A DNA stretch of 64,000 nt from Neptunicoccus cionae. GTDB taxonomy: Bacteria; Pseudomonadota; Alphaproteobacteria; Rhodobacterales; Rhodobacteraceae. The notes below the pieces were generated by a model. It saw only the letters and a program-made list of their open reading frames with translations, had not been told where the DNA came from and ran no database searches. Position 1 is the stretch's first letter, and each line of letters opens with the position of its first letter. Below are positions 1,496-14,991 of the stretch, piece after piece. A program made the translations under genes and the position numbers. The stretch spans positions 1-64,000 of the forward strand of contig NZ_BMKA01000007.1 in NCBI RefSeq assembly GCF_014643735.1, read 5' to 3'.

Positions 1496-1574
<79 letters not shown>

Positions 1575-1601
1575 ATTCTGATTTTAAATCAGATGCTTAA
1601 T

Positions 1602-1624
1602 AGCCACCTTCGGGTGGCTTTTTG
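1602..1624 (+). terminator. Terminator of tRNA-fMet (left copy)
   Basis: Stem AGCCACC (1602-1608) and GGTGGCT (1613-1619) around a TTCG tetraloop, followed by a T run. A near-copy stands in the same place after the right repeat (12670-12691), with loop CTCG instead of TTCG. Confidence 0.85.
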
Positions 1625-2050
1625 CGTTCGTGACGTGGTGTGTCCGCCTGGTGTCCGTCAGGAAAGGATGAATCAAACGGACTATTCCCAGCATGAAACT
1701 GGAAAGATCGAAGCGCAATCACACCCACTACACCATATTAATGAAGTTTCCGCCACTTTGATTGGAGCACTGTGGGCTCTTCACACTTAGAAAATTTTGA
1801 AAATTCAAGACGGTTCGTTTTGGTTTAGTTTTCATGGGTTTGATCGTTCCGATGCGTGCCGTTTCCTTTCGACTGGCAGTACCGACCTGCAACCGCGCTT
1901 CGCTCCTATAAGTATTCTAGTCTGGGTTCAGCATTTCAACGGCTGTAGGAACCAACGAATTTCGAACTTTTTCTGTTTATTCCTGAACTTGTGGGGCTAT
2001 TGTTCTAGGAAAAAATCAAGTTGGGTCGTTGCCTTGGAAGTTTATTAAGG
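1625..2050. other. Gene-free left end of the island
   Basis: Apart from the TGTCCG pair, this stretch holds only short open frames without ribosome sites or recognisable domains. It presumably contains the promoter of the large STAND gene starting at 2051. I could not pick out a convincing promoter. Confidence 0.5.
1641..1657. promoter_or_regulatory. Candidate integrase arm-type sites, left arm
   Basis: Two direct copies of TGTCCG at 1641-1646 and 1652-1657, exactly 11 bp apart, 67 bp inside the left core repeat. The same hexamer pair with the same 11-bp spacing occurs inside the right end (12458 and 12469). Helically phased repeats flanking the core on both sides fit arm-binding sites of a tyrosine integrase or its excisionase. 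This is inference from pattern only. Confidence 0.45.
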
Positions 2051-5000
2051 ATGAGTGGTGAATTGGAGTTTAGAGGGGCACGAGGTTCGAACACAGGTGA
2101 TGTCTATCATGAACTTTGGGCCGTTCGTTCGGCCCTGAAGCTGTTAGACAGCACGAGCAAACTAGAAGCGGTAACAGTGGAGGGTGTTCCATCCGCTGAC
2201 GGTTTCGGTCATCAGTGGGACGGCGTAGACTGCACGTTACTGTACGGTGGAACTAGCATTCAGACGGCAGACCGCGTGACGCTTCAACAGCTGAAGTATT
2301 CAGCGAGTGAACCGAATACATCATGGTCGCCTTCGAGGGCATGTTATGGGCCTTCATCCACCGACCCCTCATCGTCGCTTATGCGAGGATTGGGTAAGGC
2401 CTTCCGTGAGACAGTAAAGCTTAGAAAAGGTAGGCCACTCAGCGATATTTCAGTAGAACTGGTGACCAATCAGCCTGTTTCCGACCTCGTTGTAAGCGCA
2501 ATCAACAGAGCAAAAAGTGACGGTGTTCCAGGGTCTTTTAAGACCAAATGGCAGAGTGGCGGTGATAAACTGCACCGGTTAGTTCATGCCAGTGGGCTGT
2601 CTCCGAAGGAGTTTCAAGATTTCTCTAAGTGCTTGAAGTTCGTCAGCCAAACAAACTCTCGTTTCCTTTTGGAAGAGAAGATGTTGATGGAGGTTTCAGC
2701 TTGGACAGAGTCAGAGTTCGCTGAAGTGGCTCTAAGGCTGCGAAATTTCATTCGAAACGAAATGATGATGCCTGAAACGGCTGGGGAGATCATAAACAAA
2801 GAGTCGGTTCTATTGCAGTTCGGCGTCTCTGAGATACGAGCATTGTTCCCATGCCCAGCAAAGGTCAAGCCGGTCACTGATCTTGTATCGCGCGAGATTT
2901 CTAAAGAACTTTGCAACTGCATCATCGACAGTGATCAACGAATTTTGTTGCATGGATCAGGAGGTGTTGGAAAAAGTACAATTATTCAGGAGTTTCAGGG
3001 CCTTCTGCCTGAGGGTTCCGAAGTTATCGTATTCGATTGTTACGGTGCAGGGTCATATATGGATGCAAGCGCGATGCGCCATAGACCGCGCGATGCATTC
3101 GTGCAGCTGGCGAATGAACTTGCCAATCGCCTCAATATTCCCGCCTTCCTTGCGCCAAGATCGGGTTTGGACTTTGCGCGCGCATTTCACCGGAGACTGA
3201 TCTTAGCCTCCGAAACACTTTCCAAAGTCAGACCCGGAGCGAGGCTCGTGATAGTCGTAGACGCTGCCGATAACTCAATTAGTGCAGCGAATGCTCGTGT
3301 GCCGAAAGAGGAGAGTTTTGTAGCTGAACTGATCTCGTTTGAAGATCTACCGAAGAACGTTGCACTTGTCATAAGTGCACGGACCGGACGGCGAGACGAT
3401 TTGAAGCTACCAAGCTCTTTCAAACCTTTCGAGTTACCGCCCTTTAGTCGCCCAGAAACTGGTGAATTCGTTGCTCATTTCTGGGAGGCGCCAGAAGAGT
3501 GGGTAGACGATTTTCACAGACTCACCAATGGCACACCTAGGGTACAGAACTATGCCTTTGGAAAAACTTCTGGCAAACCGAGCGAGGCGTTGGATCCCCT
3601 TCGGCCAAATGGCAAAACCTTGGAAGCTATTTTCCACGAGCAATTTGACGAAGCCGTGAAGAAAGCTGGAGGGGCAACCAAAGTCGAAGAAACCTGTGCG
3701 GCGTTGGCAGTTCTACCGAGACCAATTCCAGTTGGGGAAATCGCGCATGCATTAAATTTGTCCGATGCACAAATTTTGGACATTTGCTCCGACTTAGAAC
3801 CTGGTATCCGGGTTTCAGAAAATACCATCAGCTTCGCAGACGAGGATTTTGAACATTTCGCACTTGTAAAAGGCCAAAAGTCGATACCTGAAATTCGCTC
3901 CAAAGTCGCCCGGCGGATGCTGGCTGACTACCGAAATTCTGAATACGCCGCATTGAACGTCGTTCCGCTACTATTGAAAGCCGAAATGGGAGCGGAACTG
4001 CTAGGCTTGGTAGAGAGCGAACCTGAACCCTCAACTAGCAACGTACGGGACCCCGTACTCAGGATGGAGATAAGAAATCAACGCCTGACTAATGCTATAA
4101 GTGTCTGTCGATCCGCTGGCAATTTAGAGCAAGCGGTTCGGTTTGTACTGATTGGGGCGGAAGCGCTTGAAACAGACGATGCCACACGCAAAATACTGAC
4201 AGATTTTCCAAATCTTACAGCCCGCTTTACAGGACCGACTGGCAGCAGACTAATTCTCAGCGACCCAGATCAAGTTGAACAGCAGGGCCCGCTTCTCTTG
4301 AGCATTCTTTCTAAGGAAGCAGAGCTCGGAAACTTGAGCCAGGTTCGCGAGGTTCGCAGGCGAATTTCAGCATGGTTCAAAGTGCGAGAAGACGCTTTAC
4401 GAGATCATGAGGAACAATTTGGTCATGCATCCGGGTGGAATATTGGTTCGGAAGATATGGCGAATGCACTTATTGCTAGGGCATTGGAAGAGGGTGCTCA
4501 GTCCGCGATCCAACTATTCCGCCACTGGCCTGTTGAGTTTGCGGCTAGCACTGCTCGCATCGCGATCAGAAGGTTGGTGGCAGATCAGCGCTTCAAAATC
4601 TTGCAAGACATTGGCAACGAACTCAGCCCACTGTTGGCACCATTCATATTGGTTCCGCTTCGACTGGCCGGGCAACCGGTTAATCTGAAAAAACTTGCAC
4701 AAGGACTTAGATTGCTATCTCGAAGGTATCCTATCTCTGCTAAAACTCTAGATGATCTCGGCAACAGTAGCTCTCTTAAACGAGCCATCTCAGAGGTACT
4801 GCTTAACGGCGCTGAGGTGCTCGCGGCTCATAATGCCGACCTAGAACTGGTCAAGGCGATCACAACGCCTCTGTCGGTCGCCTCGGCAAGACGCATTGAT
4901 AAGCTATATGACCATCAAACGAGGTTAATGGACGGCATACTGCGATCGTATTGCCTTCAGGAACTATTGGTCTCAGGCAGTATCGACCATAAGAACATGC

Positions 5001-8000
5001 TAGTTGAACCGCAGGAGGTAGCAACGGATAGAGGTGCCAAAACAAAGCGAACCGAATCCGATAGCGAAAGACGTATAAGAAGCGTTGTAGAGTATGTGGC
5101 ACCCTTCTACTCAAGAAGAGCTGAATATCTAATTCACCGAGCGAGCGACATTTCATCGGAAGAGTGCTTAGCTGAGCTTTTGAAATCGTTTTCACGAGAC
5201 GGTTGGAGGTTTGATCAAAACAATAGGACACTTAAACTAAGGTCAGTGATGGCGGAAGGCCTGGTTGTTTTGGTCGCAGCGAATATTCCGATCAAACCTC
5301 TTTCCAAGTTTAGTTTCGAAACCCTGAAGGGGTTTTGGCCACAAGGTGAAACCAGCGTTACAAATTTGTTTTCCTCTTTGACAGCGTTTGGTTCGCTGCA
5401 CGACGAACTACTCGACCGCACTACGGATGCTGTTAACAACCTCGCAAAGCAAAGAATGGGTGCGAGAGAAAAATCAGAAGCACTCGCAAATTTCGCCGAG
5501 TTGATTGCTCCCGTAAGTTCTGACGATGCCAATGTCATATTTCAGAAGGCAATTGCAGTCGCACACGAGTTGGACTCCGAGGCGATCGACCAAATCCGGT
5601 TCCTCCATACTCTCGTACTTAATCAAGAAATCTGCCCCTCATTTGACAAAAAACACTATGCTTCGGTGGCCGCCGAGTTCTTCGTTGATGCGGGAATCCG
5701 GCTAGAAAACGTTGAACACTTTCCTTGGAAAGAAACTATGGAAAGCATTGCGGCGCTGCACTTTCCTACTGCCCTAGCCTGTTCAGCAAGATGGGACGAC
5801 AGCAGTTATGTGAGCGCCCACGAAACATTCGAGCCTGCCTTGCACTTCGGAGTAGATCGCGGCGACTTGGACCCAGTTCAAGCTGCTGCGCTGTTGAAGC
5901 TGGTCGGGCGTCCTAGCGCACGTACAATCTCAGCGATTCTCAACAAAACAAACGGTCTAGAAGCTTCCATTAAACGAAAGCTTGTCGAAGAGTTTGCGCG
6001 TGACTTAGTCACGGAAGCGATAGACGTGTCCAATGAAACAGAGATTTTGCTCCTGTCTCAAAAGGGAGACGTCTGGCTTGATCGCCTACGACGCTTGAAC
6101 GACCTCAAAAACAGCATTGAGGACCCACCAGAAGAAAAATGCGTGAAGCAACGAAAACAAGCGCGACCAGAGTCTGTGCTAACTAAGAAGAGCTGGGACC
6201 AAGAAACACTATCCCAAGCCGAGATTCTGTACCCTGTCGCAGAGGCGTTGTTAAAAGAAACTCGGGTCAATAAAGAGTACATATCACTGTCGGGAGTGCT
6301 GCATCATGCGTCACTGCAGGTTCAGGTTGGGAATCGCACAAAATTCTTGAGCGCATTGGTTGAGATTATTGTGGAGTATGATGAACCGCAGCTCGTCGAA
6401 ACTCTGCTTGGTTCCATCAAGGCTTGGAAATTACAGCTCTCGGTTGAGGCATGGTGCGAAACCAGGTTGCCGCAATTCATCGGGGATGCGTTTCCCTATC
6501 TGGTGAGCCGCTATGCCGGCGACGCCGGAAGACTCGAAGAAGCACTAGTACTTGCCAAACTAACTGCAAAAGCCGCCGAAGAGATCATCCTAGAAGGGCT
6601 TGAAAGAAACGGTCTTTGGTTGAGTTCTCATCAGATTTTCGGGCTAGTACAACGGTTGGCCAAATTCCTTGACGACAGTGAAAGCTCGTCCCTCCTCTCA
6701 TGGTACTTAGATCGTTTGGTTGATCGGATTGCACCTGAAGACAAAGAGAATGTCGATCAACGTGGAGTTCCCGATACCATAACTAATGCGGTCGCATACT
6801 TCGTCGTTGCTTACCTGAGTGACGTCGATCTTCGTCTGAGATGGAAGGCCGCCCACGCAGGGCGTCGCCTTGCCCGACTTGGGCACGTTGAAGAACTCAA
6901 AGCGATTTTGGAACTCTACGAAAGAGCGGAAGACAACGTATTTCGGGCACCCGAGATGCCATATTATTGGCTGGCCGCTCGTCTATGGATGATGATTATG
7001 TTTGATCGCATATGTCTGGAGATGCCTTCGACCGTGGAACATGCTGGTAAACATCTCTATCAAATTGCCTTGGATTCATCTTTTCCCCACATCCTTATCA
7101 GAGATTTTGCGGCGGATGCGTGTCGCAAGCTGCGTGAAGCCGACGTGTTCCATTTGGACGATGGTCAACTGGCAGATTTGGTATCGATCAACTCCGGTAT
7201 GGCAACGACCGGCGCAGATACCGTGCCCACGGGTTCGTATGATTTCTTCAAGGTAGACCGAAACAACGAGAGATTTCATTTCGATACAATGGACACTCTT
7301 CGGTACTGGTACGCTCCTTGGTTGAGAGTATTTGAGGGAGCAACAACTGAAAACTTTCTGAACTCAGCGGAAAATTGGATCGTAGACGCATGGGGCGTGA
7401 TTGATGAAAAACCCTACGGGTTCCGAGAGCCTCGCGAAAATAGGTTCAGCGAGCGAGACAATTATCTTAGCAGCACAAGCCATGGTTCTCTTCCTACACT
7501 AGAGCGATATCGATCTCATCTTGAATGGAATGCAAAGTGGTGTGCGGCGGGCGAATTTCTTGCCCAGCGCCCTTTAAAAAAGTCGGAGTATAGCGACGCG
7601 GATGAATTCAGTGAGTTGGACTATCAAATATCGCACGGCAAACTCACCAAACCTCCGTTTTGGTTGGCAGATTTCGTGACGAACCGTCCGCTTGAAATCC
7701 ACCATTGGTCCAAAAGCTTCGCTGATGCCGCCGAATGGGTTGAAGAAATCGCTGAAGCTGAGTTTCTTCGCGAGTTGTTCCCAGAGTCAGAACCGGGTTG
7801 GATTGTCGTTGATCAATACACTGACACTCGATCAGAGCGCTGGGAATTGAACGCAAAAATCAGTACTGGACTAGTCTCACCAGGCACCGCGATATCACTC
7901 GTGCGAGCGCTGCAAACCTGCCCAAATGCCTTCGACTTCTATATTTATCCCGAAGGCCATGATCTCGAAATTGACGAGGGAAACTTCAAACTTGAAGGAT

Positions 8001-8494
8001 GGATACATCTAAATGAAGGTGATCGTAGGATTGAAGATAAGGACCCCCTACAACTTGGAACTGGGCAACTCAGCCACCTACCCGGCTCGAGCGCAGTAGA
8101 ATATTTTGGTCTACAAGAAGTTCTTGAGGATGGCCTCAAATGGATTGATCCATCTTCCGGTGACGCAATCTTTCGGTTGGAAATGTGGGGCGATAAAGGT
8201 GCTGATGAGCGAAATCGCTACTTGGGAGACAGTGTCGTAAGTTCCGGTCATCGGCTACTCATGTCGAAGAGCGCCTTGGAGAGGTTCTTAGACGATCAAG
8301 GGGCTGAACTCATTGCAGATATAGGACTAACAAAACGTGACAAAAGCCAAGGAAAACAGATCGATTTTGAAGAAAAAAAGGGGTCGGCAACCTACAACAG
8401 ATTACTTCTCCTCGAGCGATCCGGACAACTTAAGGGAGCCGAACAAAGTTTTGGCTCTTGGCGAGAAGATTGTAAGAGAGCTGGAACTGACTGA
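2051..8494 (+). CDS. Nuclease-STAND ATPase, Avs-like antiviral sensor (2147 aa)
   Basis: A very large three-part protein. (1) Residues about 1-110 look like a PD-(D/E)xK nuclease of the DUF4297/Cap4 kind: E44, D60 and the QLK motif at 80-82 are spaced as in that fold. (2) Residues about 290-500 form a STAND/NACHT-type NTPase: Walker A GSGGVGKST at 302-310, Walker B RLVIVVDAAD near 398, and the GTP(R) element typical of STAND proteins near 495. (3) The remaining 1600 residues are mostly helical and repeat-like, as in sensor arms. This architecture is that of Avs proteins, which recognise conserved phage proteins, oligomerise and cut DNA. The ATG at 2051 follows GGAAG at a good distance; a TTG at 2021 is the alternative. 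The Avs assignment, and especially the subtype, is inference. Confidence 0.75.
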   Translation: MSGELEFRGARGSNTGDVYHELWAVRSALKLLDSTSKLEAVTVEGVPSADGFGHQWDGVDCTLLYGGTSIQTADRVTLQQLKYSASEPNTSWSPSRACYGPSSTDPSSSLMRGLGKAFRETVKLRKGRPLSDISVELVTNQPVSDLVVSAINRAKSDGVPGSFKTKWQSGGDKLHRLVHASGLSPKEFQDFSKCLKFVSQTNSRFLLEEKMLMEVSAWTESEFAEVALRLRNFIRNEMMMPETAGEIINKESVLLQFGVSEIRALFPCPAKVKPVTDLVSREISKELCNCIIDSDQRILLHGSGGVGKSTIIQEFQGLLPEGSEVIVFDCYGAGSYMDASAMRHRPRDAFVQLANELANRLNIPAFLAPRSGLDFARAFHRRLILASETLSKVRPGARLVIVVDAADNSISAANARVPKEESFVAELISFEDLPKNVALVISARTGRRDDLKLPSSFKPFELPPFSRPETGEFVAHFWEAPEEWVDDFHRLTNGTPRVQNYAFGKTSGKPSEALDPLRPNGKTLEAIFHEQFDEAVKKAGGATKVEETCAALAVLPRPIPVGEIAHALNLSDAQILDICSDLEPGIRVSENTISFADEDFEHFALVKGQKSIPEIRSKVARRMLADYRNSEYAALNVVPLLLKAEMGAELLGLVESEPEPSTSNVRDPVLRMEIRNQRLTNAISVCRSAGNLEQAVRFVLIGAEALETDDATRKILTDFPNLTARFTGPTGSRLILSDPDQVEQQGPLLLSILSKEAELGNLSQVREVRRRISAWFKVREDALRDHEEQFGHASGWNIGSEDMANALIARALEEGAQSAIQLFRHWPVEFAASTARIAIRRLVADQRFKILQDIGNELSPLLAPFILVPLRLAGQPVNLKKLAQGLRLLSRRYPISAKTLDDLGNSSSLKRAISEVLLNGAEVLAAHNADLELVKAITTPLSVASARRIDKLYDHQTRLMDGILRSYCLQELLVSGSIDHKNMLVEPQEVATDRGAKTKRTESDSERRIRSVVEYVAPFYSRRAEYLIHRASDISSEECLAELLKSFSRDGWRFDQNNRTLKLRSVMAEGLVVLVAANIPIKPLSKFSFETLKGFWPQGETSVTNLFSSLTAFGSLHDELLDRTTDAVNNLAKQRMGAREKSEALANFAELIAPVSSDDANVIFQKAIAVAHELDSEAIDQIRFLHTLVLNQEICPSFDKKHYASVAAEFFVDAGIRLENVEHFPWKETMESIAALHFPTALACSARWDDSSYVSAHETFEPALHFGVDRGDLDPVQAAALLKLVGRPSARTISAILNKTNGLEASIKRKLVEEFARDLVTEAIDVSNETEILLLSQKGDVWLDRLRRLNDLKNSIEDPPEEKCVKQRKQARPESVLTKKSWDQETLSQAEILYPVAEALLKETRVNKEYISLSGVLHHASLQVQVGNRTKFLSALVEIIVEYDEPQLVETLLGSIKAWKLQLSVEAWCETRLPQFIGDAFPYLVSRYAGDAGRLEEALVLAKLTAKAAEEIILEGLERNGLWLSSHQIFGLVQRLAKFLDDSESSSLLSWYLDRLVDRIAPEDKENVDQRGVPDTITNAVAYFVVAYLSDVDLRLRWKAAHAGRRLARLGHVEELKAILELYERAEDNVFRAPEMPYYWLAARLWMMIMFDRICLEMPSTVEHAGKHLYQIALDSSFPHILIRDFAADACRKLREADVFHLDDGQLADLVSINSGMATTGADTVPTGSYDFFKVDRNNERFHFDTMDTLRYWYAPWLRVFEGATTENFLNSAENWIVDAWGVIDEKPYGFREPRENRFSERDNYLSSTSHGSLPTLERYRSHLEWNAKWCAAGEFLAQRPLKKSEYSDADEFSELDYQISHGKLTKPPFWLADFVTNRPLEIHHWSKSFADAAEWVEEIAEAEFLRELFPESEPGWIVVDQYTDTRSERWELNAKISTGLVSPGTAISLVRALQTCPNAFDFYIYPEGHDLEIDEGNFKLEGWIHLNEGDRRIEDKDPLQLGTGQLSHLPGSSAVEYFGLQEVLEDGLKWIDPSSGDAIFRLEMWGDKGADERNRYLGDSVVSSGHRLLMSKSALERFLDDQGAELIADIGLTKRDKSQGKQIDFEEKKGSATYNRLLLLERSGQLKGAEQSFGSWREDCKRAGTD

Positions 8495-9113
8495 TGGGGG
8501 GGATACCCTAGGAAAATGGATGGCACATCATCTTGCGTCTCTCATCGAAGACGCCGAAGGCTCGGATGGCGCGCAAACTGCAGCCAGACAAGAAGCCGTT
8601 GATTTGATAATCAGGCTCTGGGAGCACCGAGCTTCGATGTTGGGTACGGCCGACCCAATGTCAGCTTTGAACGGAGCAATTGGCGTTCTTGATCGCATCG
8701 GCCCTAACTCCTCTCCATTTTTTCGGGACAGTCAGAATATGCTTGAACGTGACCTAGCCTCGCTATTCGACGATTTGCGTAAGTTAGTCGCTCATGGGGT
8801 GATATTCGTTTCTAATCAAAAAGAGATCCCCAAATATACAGCTGACACCTTCGAACATCTTGCTGAAGAAGAACAACAATTCATAATGGCGTTAGGTGGT
8901 TGGCTGAGTTTTTTGGAGCAGCAAAAGCCAACGACTCCCGTCATCAATGTTGTCTTCGATAAAAACGAGCAGGAAAAAAAGAACGCTGAAGAAGAGCTGA
9001 AACTTGAAAGCTTAGAACCTGAAGAGCGCTCAAGTATATTATTGTCTCAATCTATCGACGATCTTATTAAAAATCTGCAAGAGTTCAAAATGAACATACT
9101 TTGCAGAGGCTAA
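8337..9113 (+). CDS. Companion of the STAND nuclease, unknown function (258 aa)
   Basis: Starts with GTG inside the preceding gene and overlaps it by 158 bp in the +1 frame. An AGGA ribosome site lies about ten bases upstream. The product is acidic at its C-terminus and mostly helical, with no transmembrane segment and no catalytic motif I recognise. A shorter start (ATG at 8520) would avoid the overlap. I prefer the long form because the overlapped part (basic KKKRGRQPT, then a regular helix) reads like normal protein and joins smoothly to the LGKWMAHHLASLI region. Small partner genes accompany some Avs operons, and coupling by overlap suggests joint function. Whether it is an Avs partner cannot be shown from sequence alone. 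Confidence 0.7.
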   Translation: MTKAKENRSILKKKRGRQPTTDYFSSSDPDNLREPNKVLALGEKIVRELELTDGGDTLGKWMAHHLASLIEDAEGSDGAQTAARQEAVDLIIRLWEHRASMLGTADPMSALNGAIGVLDRIGPNSSPFFRDSQNMLERDLASLFDDLRKLVAHGVIFVSNQKEIPKYTADTFEHLAEEEQQFIMALGGWLSFLEQQKPTTPVINVVFDKNEQEKKNAEEELKLESLEPEERSSILLSQSIDDLIKNLQEFKMNILCRG

Positions 9114-9722: not shown

Positions 9723-10343
9723 TCACTTAGTGGTGGCAGGGAGACAAAGGTGATCCTTTCCAATTTTCTTCAAGTATTCATCAATTAAAACGTGAGGGAC
9801 TTCGCCCAAGAAAGTAAGCTCAATGAGCGACTGCCAAGATGTGGGCGAGTGTTCCTCTAAGGCTGTTTCAACAAATTCTCCAACTTCTTGAAGCGTCCAA
9901 GGATCCTCTACAAACGCGGGCCCGTCTTGAACCTGTGATAGTTCCATGTCGCAGGTTTCTTGGGCGGCGAAACCTCCCGGTCGAATTGCCTTAGGCAGGT
10001 AATGAACAGGATTTACGCACATGGCTTCACCACAAGAACTTTCCAGTCTGTAAGGGTAATCGAGCTTCGTTGCAAAGTCGAACAGTAACCTGTTTACGGA
10101 ATGCCTTTTGCCACTAAAATTGACCACTGGCCTTGGACGGTCCATAATAATAGTAAGTTCTGGGATGTTGTCGTAGCCTCGTTTGTAACGCATACGGGGT
10201 CCGGACCTTCCGGTACTGGCCCCAGTCCAAATCATACAATTTTCCGGAAGATCATCTCGTCCTACTTCTCCTAAAATAAGTTTTTCGAGAATTGGTGATT
10301 TTGTTTTTTGTGCAACACGTTTAGCCAGGATTTCAATTTTCAT
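9723..10343 (-). CDS. HNH-like protein of mobile-element type (206 aa)
   Basis: The middle and C-terminal half recall phage HNH endonucleases: CMIWTGAS (their CWxWTG start), a VNRLLFDFATK helix in place of the usual H/NRxxY, and CGEAMCVNPVHYLPK matching the C-x-N-P-x-H-L ending. The His-containing segment between (normally V-D-H-x-C) reads LESSCGE here, so the first histidine of the HNH triad seems absent. It could be a degenerate, non-cutting DNA-binding relative. The start at 10343 has GGGAG about nine bases upstream. It is probably transcribed from the repeat-rich spacer to its right. Function is unproven. Confidence 0.55.
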   Translation of the reverse strand: MKIEILAKRVAQKTKSPILEKLILGEVGRDDLPENCMIWTGASTGRSGPRMRYKRGYDNIPELTIIMDRPRPVVNFSGKRHSVNRLLFDFATKLDYPYRLESSCGEAMCVNPVHYLPKAIRPGGFAAQETCDMELSQVQDGPAFVEDPWTLQEVGEFVETALEEHSPTSWQSLIELTFLGEVPHVLIDEYLKKIGKDHLCLPATTK

Positions 10344-10655: not shown

Positions 10656-10886
10656 CTAGTCAAGTCGAACAAAACGTGGGTCCAGAAGGGGCTTGCAAGG
10701 GAGGCCACTTACAATCGTTCTGTCGTACTCGTAGCGTTCGATCAGGCCTGCTCGAAGTAAAGAGTGGACTGTGTTGTTTGTAGCAATAAGTGGCATTTTC
10801 ACATTTTTATGAATTTCCTCGGTTGTTTGCCAAGGATGTTGTGCAAGATGGGCGAGTAATTGCTGTTCATAGGTTACCGAGGGCAT
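10656..10886 (-). CDS. Small winged-helix-like DNA-binding protein (76 aa)
   Basis: A short protein whose core (TYEQQLLAHLAQHP, then TTEEIHKNVKMPLIATNNTVHSL, then AGLIERY) reads as the three helices and wing of a MarR/ArsR-like winged helix: a helix, a turn-helix with a threonine-rich recognition helix, and the LIERYEYD wing strand. The ATG at 10886 follows GGAGA at a proper distance. A start 15 codons earlier is possible but has no better site. It lies between the AlpA-type gene and the repeat-rich spacer, so it may control one of the inverted repeats there. The fold is inferred from pattern, and its targets are unknown. Confidence 0.6.
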   Translation of the reverse strand: MPSVTYEQQLLAHLAQHPWQTTEEIHKNVKMPLIATNNTVHSLLRAGLIERYEYDRTIVSGLPCKPLLDPRFVRLD

Positions 10887-10967
10887 CGGACATTCTCCAT
10901 GTGGTGTAGCTGGCACATTAAGTGCGAGCATATTTCGTTAAGTGTGCTAGTTGGGTGGGGTTATGGG

Positions 10968-10990
10968 CAAAAAAAAAACGCCTTGTTACC
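10968..10990 (-). terminator. Probable terminator of the AlpA-type gene
   Basis: On the minus strand a short GC stem (GCCT...AGGC) overlapping the stop codon of the gene at 10986 is followed by ten Ts. The stem is short, but the T run is unusually long. Confidence 0.5.
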
Positions 10991-11198
10991 ACGAGGCTTG
11001 GGCGAAAGTTTGAACCGGACGCATTTCGTTTTGTTCTAACCAAGATTCGACGGCTTCTTTACGGTAGAGTACGGTCCGACCTACTTTGCAGCGCGCTGGG
11101 CCGAGGCGGAGAGCATGCCAGCGACTGAGCGTACGTAATGAAACACCTAACAGGGAGGCTACTTCCAAAGGTTTCATGTATGCGTTTTGTGTATCCAT
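10986..11198 (-). CDS. AlpA-family HTH regulator / excisionase-like protein (70 aa)
   Basis: MerR-like helix-turn-helix of the excisionase (AlpA/Xis) family: KPLEVASLLGVSLRTLSRWHALRLGP is the classic element, followed by the wing GRTVLYRKEAVESWLEQ. Such proteins sit beside integrases and either activate the integrase gene or bend DNA for excision. The start is clear, with AGGAG seven bases before the ATG. It lies 121 bp downstream of the integrase gene on the same strand. The TGTCCG repeats at both island ends are plausible binding sites for it, although this is inference. There is no homologue elsewhere in the window. Confidence 0.85.
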   Translation of the reverse strand: MDTQNAYMKPLEVASLLGVSLRTLSRWHALRLGPARCKVGRTVLYRKEAVESWLEQNEMRPVQTFAQASW

Positions 11199-11319: not shown

Positions 11320-12456
11320 TTATTTTCTGCCCGCAGCTGCGGAAAAAGAGTTTGCGGCTTTACGTAGTGGGTCATCCATTAAGTGAGCGTAGCGTAGGGT
11401 AGTTTGATATTGTGAGTGGCCTAGAAGTTTTCCGATGGCCTCAAGTGAGGCGCCGCCGGAGATAAGGACGGATGCAAAGGAATGGCGTAGGTCGTGAATG
11501 CGCAAATCTTGTAGGTTCGTTTCTTTTTTGAGCCATGTCCAAGGTCGGTTTAAATCTGACATGTGAGTGCCAGTCGCGGTCGGAAAGAGATAGTTACTGG
11601 TTGCGCCTTCCTTCATTGTCTTTAAAAGCAGGAGTGCTTCATCTGAGAGTGGGATGCGTTTTCGTTTCCTATCTTTGCTCTTGTGCGGCGGGCGATTTAA
11701 TAGGCCTTGCTCAAGATCCAAATCGCACCATTCCAAAGAGAGAATCTCTCCTCGGCGAGCACCTGTAAGGACTAAGAGCCTTATAGCGTTGGCTGCGCGT
11801 TGGTTTGGCATACGATCGAGAGCACTGAATACCCGTTCATATTCAGCCGGTGTCAAATACCGTTCGCGAGGTTGTTCTGTATTTCTGCGAAAGCCATCTG
11901 CTGGATTTTTTTCAATCCAGCCCCATCTAATTGCCAAATTGAGAGCTTTTCTAAGAACCTCTAGAACGCGGTTTGCGCGCGTCGGACCAGCTTCGCTCAC
12001 GCGAGCGTGCAAGCGGTCGATATGATTGCTGGTGAGTTCTCGAACTTGGATGAATTGGAGCTCTGGCAAGATGAATTTTGACCACATACTGCGTTGATCC
12101 GATTGGCTTCGTTTAGATAAAGTTGGCAGGTGGGCGCGTTCATACTCGGAGAAAAGGTCTGCAACATTTGGGGCCGCCTTGCGCTTGTTCCGGTCTTCGA
12201 GTGGGTCTTGACCTCGATCGATCAAACGCCGCAATCGCTTGGCTTCCTCGCGAGCTGCCGCCGCGCTCCAAGCTGGATGACTACCAATAGTCATTCTACG
12301 TTCGCGTCGGTTAATGTTGTAATTTAGAATGAAGGATTTGGTTCCTGCCTTAGTTATGCGAAGTCCAAAGCCTTTAATTGCAGCATCGTAATGGATTTTG
12401 TTGCCCTTCTCAGGAGCATCTGCCCTTTTCGTGAAGGTCTCGTTAATATTTGTCAT
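11320..12456 (-). CDS. Tyrosine-type site-specific integrase (378 aa)
   Basis: Phage-type integrase with an N-terminal arm-binding/DUF4102-like part (residues about 1-90), a core-binding domain (about 95-185) and a C-terminal catalytic domain. The catalytic set is complete: R234 in LTGARRGEI, H321-x-x-R324 in HDLRHSF, H347 in LGHSQ and the nucleophile Y356 in LRYAHL. I place the start at the ATG at 12456 (MTNINET), the usual beginning for this family; a GTG at 12498 would run across an inverted repeat. The gene ends about 1.1 kb from the island interior and starts 135 bp from the right core repeat, consistent with action on the tRNA-fMet 3' end. Confidence 0.95.
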   Translation of the reverse strand: MTNINETFTKRADAPEKGNKIHYDAAIKGFGLRITKAGTKSFILNYNINRRERRMTIGSHPAWSAAAAREEAKRLRRLIDRGQDPLEDRNKRKAAPNVADLFSEYERAHLPTLSKRSQSDQRSMWSKFILPELQFIQVRELTSNHIDRLHARVSEAGPTRANRVLEVLRKALNLAIRWGWIEKNPADGFRRNTEQPRERYLTPAEYERVFSALDRMPNQRAANAIRLLVLTGARRGEILSLEWCDLDLEQGLLNRPPHKSKDRKRKRIPLSDEALLLLKTMKEGATSNYLFPTATGTHMSDLNRPWTWLKKETNLQDLRIHDLRHSFASVLISGGASLEAIGKLLGHSQYQTTLRYAHLMDDPLRKAANSFSAAAGRK

Positions 12457-12457
12457 A

Positions 12458-12490
12458 TGTCCGCTCTGTGTCCGGCCTTTGTCGGACACA
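12458..12490. promoter_or_regulatory. TGTCCG repeats and inverted repeat before the integrase
   Basis: TGTCCG occurs at 12458-12463 and 12469-12474, 11 bp apart, and then inverted: TGTGTCCG (12467-12474) faces CGGACACA (12483-12490) across an 8-bp spacer. It lies between the integrase start and the right core repeat. It may be an arm-type binding site, an operator or both. Confidence 0.5.
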
Positions 12491-12591
12491 GTTGGCACTA
12501 AATGTCTTTTTGGGTCAATAAGCGTCTATCCAATTTCCAGAAATTGATTGAAAGTAAAGGTTTTTTTTGTGGAATTGGGCAGTTTGACACA

Positions 12592-12642
12592 CAGGCTCAT
12601 AACCTGAAGGTCGTAGGTTCAAATCCTACCCCCGCAACCAAT
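12592..12642 (+). repeat. attR core (51-bp direct repeat, tRNA fragment)
   Basis: Perfect copy of 1524-1574. It contains only the 3' part of tRNA-fMet from the anticodon stem to CCA, so it is not a functional gene. By the usual integration logic it is the host's original tRNA 3' end displaced by the island. Confidence 0.92.
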
Positions 12643-12669
12643 GTTCTGATGTAATATCAGTCGCTTAAA

Positions 12670-12691
12670 AGCCACCCTCGGGTGGCTTTTT
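12670..12691 (+). terminator. Displaced tRNA-fMet terminator (right copy)
   Basis: Stem AGCCACC (12670-12676), loop CTCG, GGTGGCT (12681-12687), then five Ts. It is homologous to the terminator at 1602-1624 and is probably the original host version. Confidence 0.8.
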
Positions 12692-13113
12692 GCGTTGATA
12701 GATTGCCCATGGAAGAGTTGTGGAAGGTTGCGGCGATGGAATCGGGTGCTGTAATCTTGCTACAGTTGGGGTGGTCACTTTATTGCTGACCGCTGACATG
12801 TAAATTTGACATAACGGCGGAAACCGGACTTTCGCTGCGGTTGCGAGCTGTCTCTCAACAGGGACAGAAAGCAGTCATTGACTGGACGTGGGCGTGGGAA
12901 GGACTGACGACTTAGAACGGAATACTCAAGATTTCTGATCATAAAACCAAGACCGCAAGTAAGCGTTGCATCTGGCCCCCAAAATTGGACCTTAAAGCTT
13001 GGGAAGACTGGCACTATATTGACGCTACGCGTCAATATGGGACATACCCACCGTTCGGAAATTTGCATTGGACGACCGCTTCCAGCGGCTGTTTCAAGTG
13101 GTCATTTGATGTT
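12692..13113. other. Gene-free flank with a strong palindrome; likely eroded repeat
   Basis: Contains the palindrome ATTGACGC-TAC-GCGTCAAT at 13018-13036. An open frame covering 12775-13068 on the minus strand has no ribosome site or known domain, and I do not regard it as a gene. The stretch has the look of a short interspersed intergenic repeat. Confidence 0.4.
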
Positions 13114-14115
13114 TTAGTCTCCTAGCTGAAAATCTAACAAATCGTCGCCTATCATTCCGCGAGCTTTTTTCGCGCCATCGGGCAACACTAAGATGAATTT
13201 TCGCGTACTGGCGGCGAGGCCGAGAAGCGCAGAAACCATTGGCCCACTATCCTTCTTCTTTTCCGTGCGCTCACCGATTATTACTTTTCCAACAATGCGT
13301 CCTCGGTACTCGACAGTGTAGGTGACACTCTTGGGCGGATTGGAAGTACTGGCCAATGCACTGACCACAGAGGCTTCGTTCTTCTGATAAGTCCCGATGG
13401 CAATAAAATTCTCACCTTCTAACCTGACATCCAATTCACAATTGGGGTCAATAATCGTTTTAGGAACGTCATGGCGCGCACGCTGCCAAAGGTGTTCTCC
13501 TACATGGCTTAAAAAGACACTCTTTGAACTCACCCCTTTCAACTTGTCTTTATGGGTTTTATCTTCCTCTTCTGGAATTTCTCTCAACCGTACAAGCGCC
13601 GACGCCACGTTGTCATGGTAGCTCGGATGCTTCTGGGCTTCTTTCAGTATCTCGTCAGCTTCAGATAAGAAACCAGAGCTCATGTGCTCGTATGCAAGGT
13701 TGCTCATCGCGAGTGTTTCAACTCTTCTCGCAGCCTTCCGGAAAGCATCAATTGATTTCCCGCGCAACGAGAAGTGCCGATAAACGACCCCTAAGTTGTT
13801 CCAGACTGTTCCATCCCTCTGGTTGGCAGGAATTTTTTCATAGTGAAACATGGCGAGAGCGTCACTGCTTGTTTGCGCATGAAGGTAGGCCAGCTGGAAG
13901 CGATTTGATATGTCAGACGGATTGATCGAGAGCTCCCTTTCTAACATCGCAGCCTTTAATACATCGTCTTGGTACCAATCAGAAAGATCCGAAAGTGTGG
14001 CCAACAGCAGGTCTTCCATTTCAGGCCCGTCTACAAGATCGCGCATTTCTGCGACAATTGCAGGAATGTCTTTGCTACTACCTTGGTCCTGAACGGCGCG
14101 CGCCAGCTCTCCCAA
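13114..14115 (-). CDS. TPR-type protein of unknown function (333 aa)
   Basis: Helical-repeat protein: the segment around residues 55-170 shows tetratricopeptide features (SNRFQLAYLH, then TVWNNLGVVYRHFSLRGKS, then AMSNLAYEHMSSGFLSEA). The C-terminal 130 residues look beta-rich (LDVRLEGENFIAIGTY, VTYTVEYRGRIVGKV) with no catalytic motif I know. No signal peptide is visible, so it is presumably cytoplasmic. The only start available before the frame closes is TTG at 14115, with a weak CAGG upstream. It begins 48 bp after the stop of the truncated HamA-like gene, so its promoter and perhaps its first codons may have been altered by the same deletion. It could be an ordinary orphan or a defence accessory. 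Confidence 0.6.
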   Translation of the reverse strand: MGELARAVQDQGSSKDIPAIVAEMRDLVDGPEMEDLLLATLSDLSDWYQDDVLKAAMLERELSINPSDISNRFQLAYLHAQTSSDALAMFHYEKIPANQRDGTVWNNLGVVYRHFSLRGKSIDAFRKAARRVETLAMSNLAYEHMSSGFLSEADEILKEAQKHPSYHDNVASALVRLREIPEEEDKTHKDKLKGVSSKSVFLSHVGEHLWQRARHDVPKTIIDPNCELDVRLEGENFIAIGTYQKNEASVVSALASTSNPPKSVTYTVEYRGRIVGKVIIGERTEKKKDSGPMVSALLGLAASTRKFILVLPDGAKKARGMIGDDLLDFQLGD

Positions 14116-14162
14116 AAAACCTGTCTGACGCCAGCACTTATGGGACCAAATAGGGCGAATTG

Positions 14163-14714
14163 CTAAGAGAGTGTTTGTTGCTCATCGAATTTGGCATGAA
14201 TACCGTCGGTTCCGTGCACTGGCATGTTATTGTTAGTTTTAGGGTACATTTTTGAGACAATTTGCGGTGCCTCAAGCAGCCATTCGACCAATATGAAAAG
14301 CAAGATTTCACCAGCTTCTCCTGACCTGTGACTTCCCTTTTTCGCCTTTATAAAGAGACTGCGAGCACGCTCATGCAATTGCGTCGAAACCTGATTGACC
14401 AAAACTGTATCATTGTCAGTAAGCGCTTGTTTCATCCTGTCGTGAGCAGACGTGATCTCAGACCGAGGTAAGCAGAACGAGACGATCTGGTGATACAGGA
14501 CCTCAAGAAACTCGTCGCATGTCTGTTTTCCATCTCTGAACGCAATGTAGCTACAGCGAACTTCAATGCGATCACCAAGTGAATCGGTATCATAATTCAA
14601 GTGGCGTATTCGGCTCGATAGGCTACTAAAATTGCCTAGGAAGGTTTCAAGTTGTTCTGCTAATAACATTACTGCCCACTGGAACTTGCCCGCAATGAGA
14701 TTTGCTCCGCTCAT
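14163..14714 (-). pseudogene. Truncated HamA-like (DUF1837, Hachiman) gene
   Basis: The 183-residue product carries two hallmarks of HamA/DUF1837 proteins: a glycine-containing amphipathic helix (SGEAGEILLFILVEWLLE) and, near its end, SKMYPKTNNNMPVHGTDGIH with the conserved Asp-Gly-x-His. In intact HamA this is followed at once by the GExK motif of the PD-(D/E)xK nuclease and a further hundred or so residues. Here a stop codon comes seven residues after DGIHAKF, so ExK and the C-terminal half are gone. No HamB helicase gene is near. I read it as a remnant of a Hachiman-type locus cut by a deletion that now abuts the TPR gene. A reassigned short gene is less likely. Confidence 0.6.
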
Positions 14715-14916
14715 GGTTGAATTTCATGTCAACGCTTCAACAGTTTCTCTTAGTAATCAAGAGAATAAGCCCAAACAGCTAACCATATAGAAATATTTGG
14801 ACGGGCCTGCTGAGATGGAGGCACGAAGTGACACCCATACGGCACCCAAGTTTATGAATGCGATAATCAAACCACAGCCTTGATCTGCAATGTTACTTTA
14901 ATAACAGATAGTTAAA

Positions 14917-14991
14917 TGGTGCCCGGGGGCGGAATCGAACCACCGACACGAGGATTTTCAATCCACTGCTCTACCCCTGAGCTACCCGGGC
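14917..14991 (-). tRNA. tRNA-Phe (GAA)
   Basis: A 75-nt cloverleaf on the minus strand: acceptor GCCCGGG/CCCGGGC, anticodon loop with GAA (TTGAAAA), T-arm GGTTCGATTCC, discriminator A and encoded CCA. No duplicate of its 3' end was found in the window, so it is not visibly used as an integration site here. Confidence 0.95.

Follow-up and report, generated by a model that had tools for sequence, protein, structure and literature searches.

The Avs3 gene pair

The window analysed here, a 64,000-nucleotide stretch of Neptunicoccus cionae DNA, carries a large and a small gene that overlap on the forward strand. Judged by profile matches, the pair is a divergent branch of AVAST type 3 (Avs3), an already catalogued kind of system, and we name the genes avs3a and avs3b. 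They are arranged as follows:

2051..8494, forward strand: avs3a, 2147 residues; by homology a Cap4/DUF4297-like nuclease, a STAND NTPase and a long C-terminal sensor arm
8337..8494, forward strand: overlap of avs3a and avs3b, up to 158 nt in the +1 frame, counted from the first start, GTG 8337; probably dual-coding
8337..9113, forward strand: avs3b, 258 residues; conserved over residues ~37–134, with a variable C-terminal part

The avs3a frame runs from an ATG at 2051 to a stop ending at 8494, a longer start at TTG 2021 being possible. Its product matches the PADLOC profile for Avs3a (PDLC02167, E = 1.1e-208) with residues 11–2127 on profile positions 8–2087 of 2090, and no other PADLOC family at E up to 1. 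The small protein matches the Avs3b profile (PDLC02168, E = 1.7e-20, residues 37–134 only), again with no other PADLOC family at E up to 1. A first-pass annotation, made from the sequence alone, had read the pair as an Avs-type anti-phage system; these two families sharpen that reading to type 3. Types 1, 2, 4 and 5 were rejected, none of them giving a PADLOC profile match to the large protein at the same threshold. The suggestion that the combination might be undescribed did not survive, avs3a and avs3b being already a named pair in PADLOC and NCBIfam.

Avs3a also aligns with SeAvs3 of Salmonella enterica (PDB 8dgc; E = 3.1e-131) over residues 11–2125 of 2147; this entry is the sole PDB match (E up to 1e-5) of a profile built from 22 sequences, the window protein among them. 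The same nuclease, STAND and sensor-arm regions are covered, and this full-length homology argues for a long C-terminal sensor arm in Avs3a, read as helical in the first-pass annotation. From SeAvs3 residue 8 onward, the N terminus lines up with the Cap4-type nuclease at that end of SeAvs3 and keeps the catalytic residues, which agrees with the N-terminal nuclease first proposed for the protein.

We counted motif residues over 77 full-length proteins (longer than 1900 residues stop to stop, window included). The nuclease residues E44, D60, Q80 and K82, the last two within Q80-L-K82, stand where they had been placed, and each is kept in 76/77. Walker A, expected near 302–310, is G302-S-G-G-V-G-K308-S309, with K308 present in 77/77. 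Walker B had been put near 398; the motif is there (VIVVDAADN), its aspartate falling slightly later at D404, and both D404 and D407 are invariant (77/77). The GTP-type STAND element proposed near 495 is present as N493-G-T-P-R497, with P496 and R497 kept in 76 of the 77, but its threonine is not conserved (T in 2/77, N in 45/77). Conservation in 76–77 of 77 proteins indicates that these motifs are not chance resemblances.

Pfam returns weak AAA/NACHT matches only for the large protein, all under the curated cut-offs, and finds in it neither a nuclease family nor a DNA-binding output domain. The general NTPase matches are what a STAND transcription regulator, or some other non-defence NTPase, might give. 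We regard such a protein as highly improbable and rejected the regulator as a candidate: the best profile of the full protein is a defence profile, Avs3a, which is its sole PADLOC family and matches it end to end, the nuclease residues are kept, and the output domain is missing from the Pfam results.

Phylogeny and distribution

We placed the window in a midpoint-rooted FastTree of the 77 full-length proteins, which carries warnings of long branches and uneven composition. The window groups with Acidovorax sp. A1169 (support 100, 39% identical over 2055 columns), its nearest full-length relative in the tree. The Acidovorax pair has the same overlap and frame, but its host belongs to another class and no window-like integrase was detected in its fetched flank. 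The window lies within a set of 47 rows; a set of 30 rows across the midpoint holds the NCBI-named Klebsiella Avs3a (L004), part of an annotated avs3a and avs3b pair as in the window. All 22 proteins sampled across the two sets, the window's included, match NCBIfam NF041816, so there is no new family here. The window protein scores 761.7 bits against NF041816, below the naming (equivalog) cut-off of 2800, and for that reason we class it, by sequence, as a divergent member of the named Avs3 family. Avs3-type immunity would thus extend to a branch far from the enterobacterial examples, one that the NCBI naming cut-off misses. Since the system already has a name and the window adds a divergent member to it, the find is of modest novelty; what makes it interesting is the overlapping partner, present in almost every case.

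Closer relatives are fragments. Yoonia maritima (L016) has an avs3a fragment 93% identical over residues 1–977, and a Pararhodobacter metagenome-assembled genome (L017) one 91% identical over residues 1–825, whose contig ends just after the match. The Yoonia copy (L016 1077–4403) has lost the latter half of avs3a and the beginning of avs3b through an internal deletion, so that a piece matching window 1958–4982 is joined directly to one matching 8755–9061. The same Yoonia genome carries a second, partial Avs3a match elsewhere.

Relatives were drawn from the best 79 of 428 in the genome scan. Avs3a occurs in 4/385 sampled Alphaproteobacteria genomes, or 3/384 without the centre genome of that sample, which had been chosen for its decayed Yoonia avs3a copy. 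Of 72,556 plasmid records, 18 contain it (2 covering at least 80% of the query), as do three viral contigs; a search of 5,426 E. coli genomes with the Klebsiella pair as query gave 4 matches, two of which span 80% or more. An integrase like that of the window lies in the fetched flank at 11 of the 94 other loci. On these counts and flanks the distribution of Avs3 is sporadic and accessory, which suits the mobile rather than core context anticipated for the gene. Phage records gave no match to Avs3a, and none was confirmed in a viral-contig scan with the single protein. The Avs3b profile PDLC02168 was silent over the same 385 genomes, but so were the controls, making that search uninformative.

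An Aliarcobacter plasmid (L114 4230–6278) places a TIR domain ahead of an Avs3-type STAND domain (TIR_2, E = 1.6e-16; Avs3a over residues 245–677). A further Avs3a-like match on it is spread over later open reading frames (ORFs), and the record is not among the avs3b matches.

Overlap and pairing of avs3a and avs3b

The small overlapping partner was correctly called: from GTG 8337 the genes share 158 nt, with avs3b in the +1 frame. TTG 8367 and TTG 8451 are further start candidates and the choice among the three is unsure. We consider TTG 8451 less likely as the sole start, arguing (this is no proof) that PKDVLALG-like residues just upstream of it recur in relatives, where they stand beyond the last conserved part of Avs3a.

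Pairing is close to constant. avs3b adjoins avs3a in 69 of 74 testable full-length loci, a count that leaves aside 17/94 loci whose avs3a is broken, cut or short and 3/77 full-length loci with less than 700 nt downstream, and that uses an avs3b profile built in part from the pairs it then counts. The remaining five (L005, L010, L011, L015 and L060) have intact nuclease residues and no adjoining avs3b. Of 71 pairs, 70 have avs3b in the +1 frame and 70 have a start codon before the avs3a stop (ATG in 63); the exception to both is L064, whose avs3b is truncated. The partner is thus nearly always kept, and across several phyla it occupies one and the same overlapping frame, which sharpens the question of what Avs3b does.

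An open frame in a single case means little, the chance of an open 42-codon +1 frame inside avs3a genes being 0.184. More weight attaches to the fact that frame and position stay constant, although common descent contributes to this. We also counted synonymous change (codons keeping their amino acid) over 17 close pairs, 16 of which have overlap codons (L004/L064 has none). It amounts to 52/458 in the last 37 avs3a codons, against 589/2653 in the preceding 200 and 6557/27315 in the rest; the pairs share sequences and are not independent, and several are also low just upstream. Depletion is slight in L062/L083 (0.45 in the overlap versus 0.53), and the end of avs3a is undepleted in L010/L011, which lack avs3b and stand outside the sum (0.68 in the last 37 codons versus 0.59 in the rest). 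Dual coding of the overlap is a probable reading that fits these data, without proof. By reading, we rejected a −1 programmed frameshift that would fuse both proteins at the A-rich run at ~8372–8384, as avs3b lies in the +1 frame, out of −1 reach.

The partner protein Avs3b

All 67 of the 67 aligned Avs3b proteins, window included, match PDLC02168. The window protein scores 75.4 bits against NCBIfam NF041817, below its cut-off of 200. Beyond these families little resembles it: Pfam gives scattered weak matches over the 67 members (best E = 0.0028), the Avs3b profile retrieves nothing from the PDB better than E = 0.15, leaving no PDB homologue by sequence, and a profile scan with the small partner gave no conserved stretch. 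The open literature searched, a set outside which the original Avs papers lie, yielded no account of Avs3b function, and the parts covered of PMC12799240, PMC10884400 and PMC13236601 hold nothing on it.

Our best guess is that Avs3b is a putative binder of Avs3a that tunes it. Rather unlikely, to our mind, is that Avs3b acts as a restraint, an antitoxin-like inhibitor under which the nuclease would stay inactive until infection. The overlap, the probable coupling of translation and the near-constant pairing would suit such a role, as would the persistence of avs3b without detected avs3a on a Qipengyuania plasmid (L001 11962–12708) or beside a truncated avs3a in Fibrella (L002 11980–12669, with an IS3 element upstream). 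It sits poorly with the 5/74 full-length avs3a genes that keep their nuclease residues and have no adjoining avs3b; moreover, Avs3b has no PDB homologue by sequence, which suggests that the SeAvs3 structure was determined in its absence.

Exchange at the 3′ end of the operon

Informative sites in two quartets of relatives show where along the operon groupings change. Those of an enterobacterial quartet (L013, L080, L092 and L094) are mixed up to nt 1500, favour L013–L094 with L080–L092 from about nt 1500 to 5100 (13 versus 2 at nt 2101–2400) and switch to L013–L080 from about nt 5400 through the end of avs3b (30 to 1 at 5701–6000; 21, 1 and 1 at 6301–6600). The last ~270 avs3a codons and avs3b therefore group alike, unlike the middle of the gene. 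Outside the operons, the flanks have only short matches in common, save those of L004 with L094. A roseobacter quartet (L051, L055, L070 and L089) keeps an L051–L055 grouping throughout the second half of avs3a, but the sites for it rise sharply to 55 and 72 per 300 nt at nt 5701–6300, then drop to 22 over the junction and to 11 in the 300 nt of avs3b that follow. The sensor end is exchanged or unusually divergent in both quartets, and avs3b clearly follows in one, the enterobacterial.

The shared grouping of avs3a end and avs3b in the enterobacterial quartet, between flanks with little in common, is what one would expect if Avs3b were a second specificity or licensing factor acting with the C-terminal end of the sensor. 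We hold this as a tentative possibility, on the unlikely side: neighbouring DNA can be exchanged jointly without any functional link, so that physical adjacency alone could explain the pattern, and in the roseobacter quartet the excess at the avs3a end is not followed by most of avs3b. Together with the near-constant pairing and the shared overlapping frame, the joint exchange in one group yields concrete predictions on binding and swapping. In the window's own branch, the DNA identity of the Yoonia copy falls from 93.4% over window 1958–4982 to 83.7% over 8755–9061 (inside avs3b), a hint of 3′ exchange there too.

A bolder version, which we consider a long shot, would make the 3′ part of the operon an exchangeable specificity cassette, comprising the last ~250 residues of the sensor and an overprinted Avs3b that serves as co-sensor or licensing factor and is no inhibitor. 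A terminase sensor may be obliged to ignore its host's own terminase; if the cassette existed, Avs3b could help Avs3 to ignore the terminase of the gene transfer agent (GTA) in GTA-bearing Rhodobacterales. The GTA marker PF13547 is found in 8/8 Rhodobacterales-type Avs3 genomes searched (those behind L016, L017, L039, L051, L055, L070, L086 and L089), seven of them over the cut-off, with L039 weak. It is absent from the other 4 of the 12 Avs3 genomes searched and present in 1/14 of a control set (Caulobacter). Most Rhodobacterales may carry a GTA anyway, so the marker is a lead only.

Proposed mechanism

Known relatives suggest how the system would work. SeAvs3 tetramerises upon phage detection, which brings its nuclease domains together, according to the part of PMC10952240 available to us. 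The Cap4 domains of Avs3, a protein that we take from the legend to be SeAvs3, form a tetramer of two nuclease dimers, the inward-facing one of which cuts (PMC11291478, seen in part). Avs1–4 nucleases cut phage and host DNA after recognising the large terminase, the portal or another phage protein, as stated in the portion consulted of PMC12931631.

By homology, the C-terminal arm of Avs3a would sense a protein of the phage, the large terminase being the likeliest; the STAND NTPase domain would then assemble four Avs3a copies, the paired N-terminal Cap4-type nuclease domains would cut the DNA of both phage and host, and the infected cell would die before releasing progeny. Avs3b would be translated from the overlapping frame, an overlap that makes coupling to Avs3a translation probable. 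What Avs3b does is more speculative: most likely it attaches to Avs3a, possibly close to where the sensor ends at the C terminus, as a tuning or licensing factor and not as a killing enzyme. The scheme of the relatives is the best explanation because every catalytic and NTPase residue tested is conserved and the alignment covers the whole sensor arm. Overall, we put at roughly 0.8 the probability that the window holds a divergent AVAST type 3 system, the cargo of an 11-kb tRNA-Met element, in which a terminase-triggered nuclease tetramer causes abortive infection and Avs3b binds and tunes Avs3a.

Several observations weigh against this account. Avs3a is only 23–24% identical to the Klebsiella L004 protein and, at 761.7 bits, falls below the NCBI cut-off of 2800, so its trigger could differ from that of SeAvs3. 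The five paired-less loci among 74 indicate that the partner is not universally required, and in three of the 71 pairs (L026, L064 and L083) the avs3b frame is shorter than 150 residues.

The first of these points leads to an alternative with the same Avs3 architecture, in which this branch senses the portal or some other phage protein in place of the large terminase. Identity to SeAvs3 is low and the window sits on a separate branch, SeAvs3 itself being absent from the tree, where L004 is assumed as its proxy; in some relatives the last ~250 residues of the sensor seem open to exchange. Recognition of the portal or of other proteins is described for other Avs types, and a single Avs may respond to more than one trigger (PMC12931631, in the portion consulted). 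As the whole sensor arm aligns with SeAvs3 with no domain gap, we think a different trigger possible and stay with the large terminase as the likelier one.

The nuclease also recalls DUF4297-HerA, whose N-terminal DUF4297 dimer has been superimposed on the Avs3 Cap4 tetramer (PMC11291478, in the part seen). That system is driven by a separate HerA hexamer, whereas the window nuclease is fused to a STAND NTPase; no HerA ATPase partner was found among the island ORFs searched, a set outside which the smallest ORFs lie.

The mobile element at tRNA-Met

The gene pair lies between direct repeats, the left of which starts inside a tRNA gene, together with a tyrosine integrase, in keeping with the island cargo recognised in the first-pass annotation:

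1496..1572, forward strand: tRNA-Met (CAT), the integration target (ARAGORN)
1524..1628, no strand assigned: left attachment-site repeat (105 nt), which takes in the 3′ end of the tRNA and, by reading, a hairpin-like stretch after it
9723..10343, reverse strand: possible endonuclease ORF, 206 residues (PHROG 1872 'endonuclease', E = 7.8e-5; HNH-like by reading)
10656..10931, reverse strand: winged-helix regulator-like ORF, 91 residues (weak TrmB/MarR matches below curated cut-offs; PHROG 1687, E = 7e-4)
10986..11198, reverse strand: AlpA/excisionase-type helix-turn-helix-like ORF, 70 residues (label by reading only)
11320..12498, reverse strand: tyrosine integrase (Pfam Phage_integrase, E = 2.5e-29; Arm-DNA-bind_3, E = 2.9e-18; PHROG 1)
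12592..12696, no strand assigned: right attachment-site repeat, in direct orientation to 1524–1628

The two 105-nt repeats are 92% identical, the left one starting inside tRNA-Met, and bracket an element of 11.07 kb from repeat start to repeat start. Pfam matches nothing in the 206-residue ORF at E up to 1. GC content is 0.42–0.51 inside the element, 0.51–0.54 just left of the tRNA and 0.55–0.61 from 15 to 22 kb; the stretch 12697–14916, up to tRNA-Phe, is low in GC too and lies outside the repeat. A search for empty sites with the tRNA flank matched 245 of 295 genomes, nearly all via the tRNA itself among the matches listed, and near-identical DNA on plasmids came down to tRNA-sized matches, 1–2% of the query among the matches listed.

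Just outside the attachment-site repeat, a reverse-strand ORF at 14163–14714, beside tRNA-Phe (14917–14991), resembles HamA of Hachiman over the first 98 of 230 Pfam positions. It is followed by a reverse-strand TPR-like ORF at 13114–14115 (PHROG 31809, positions 269–509 of 538 only). These two are perhaps the remains of another defence insertion.

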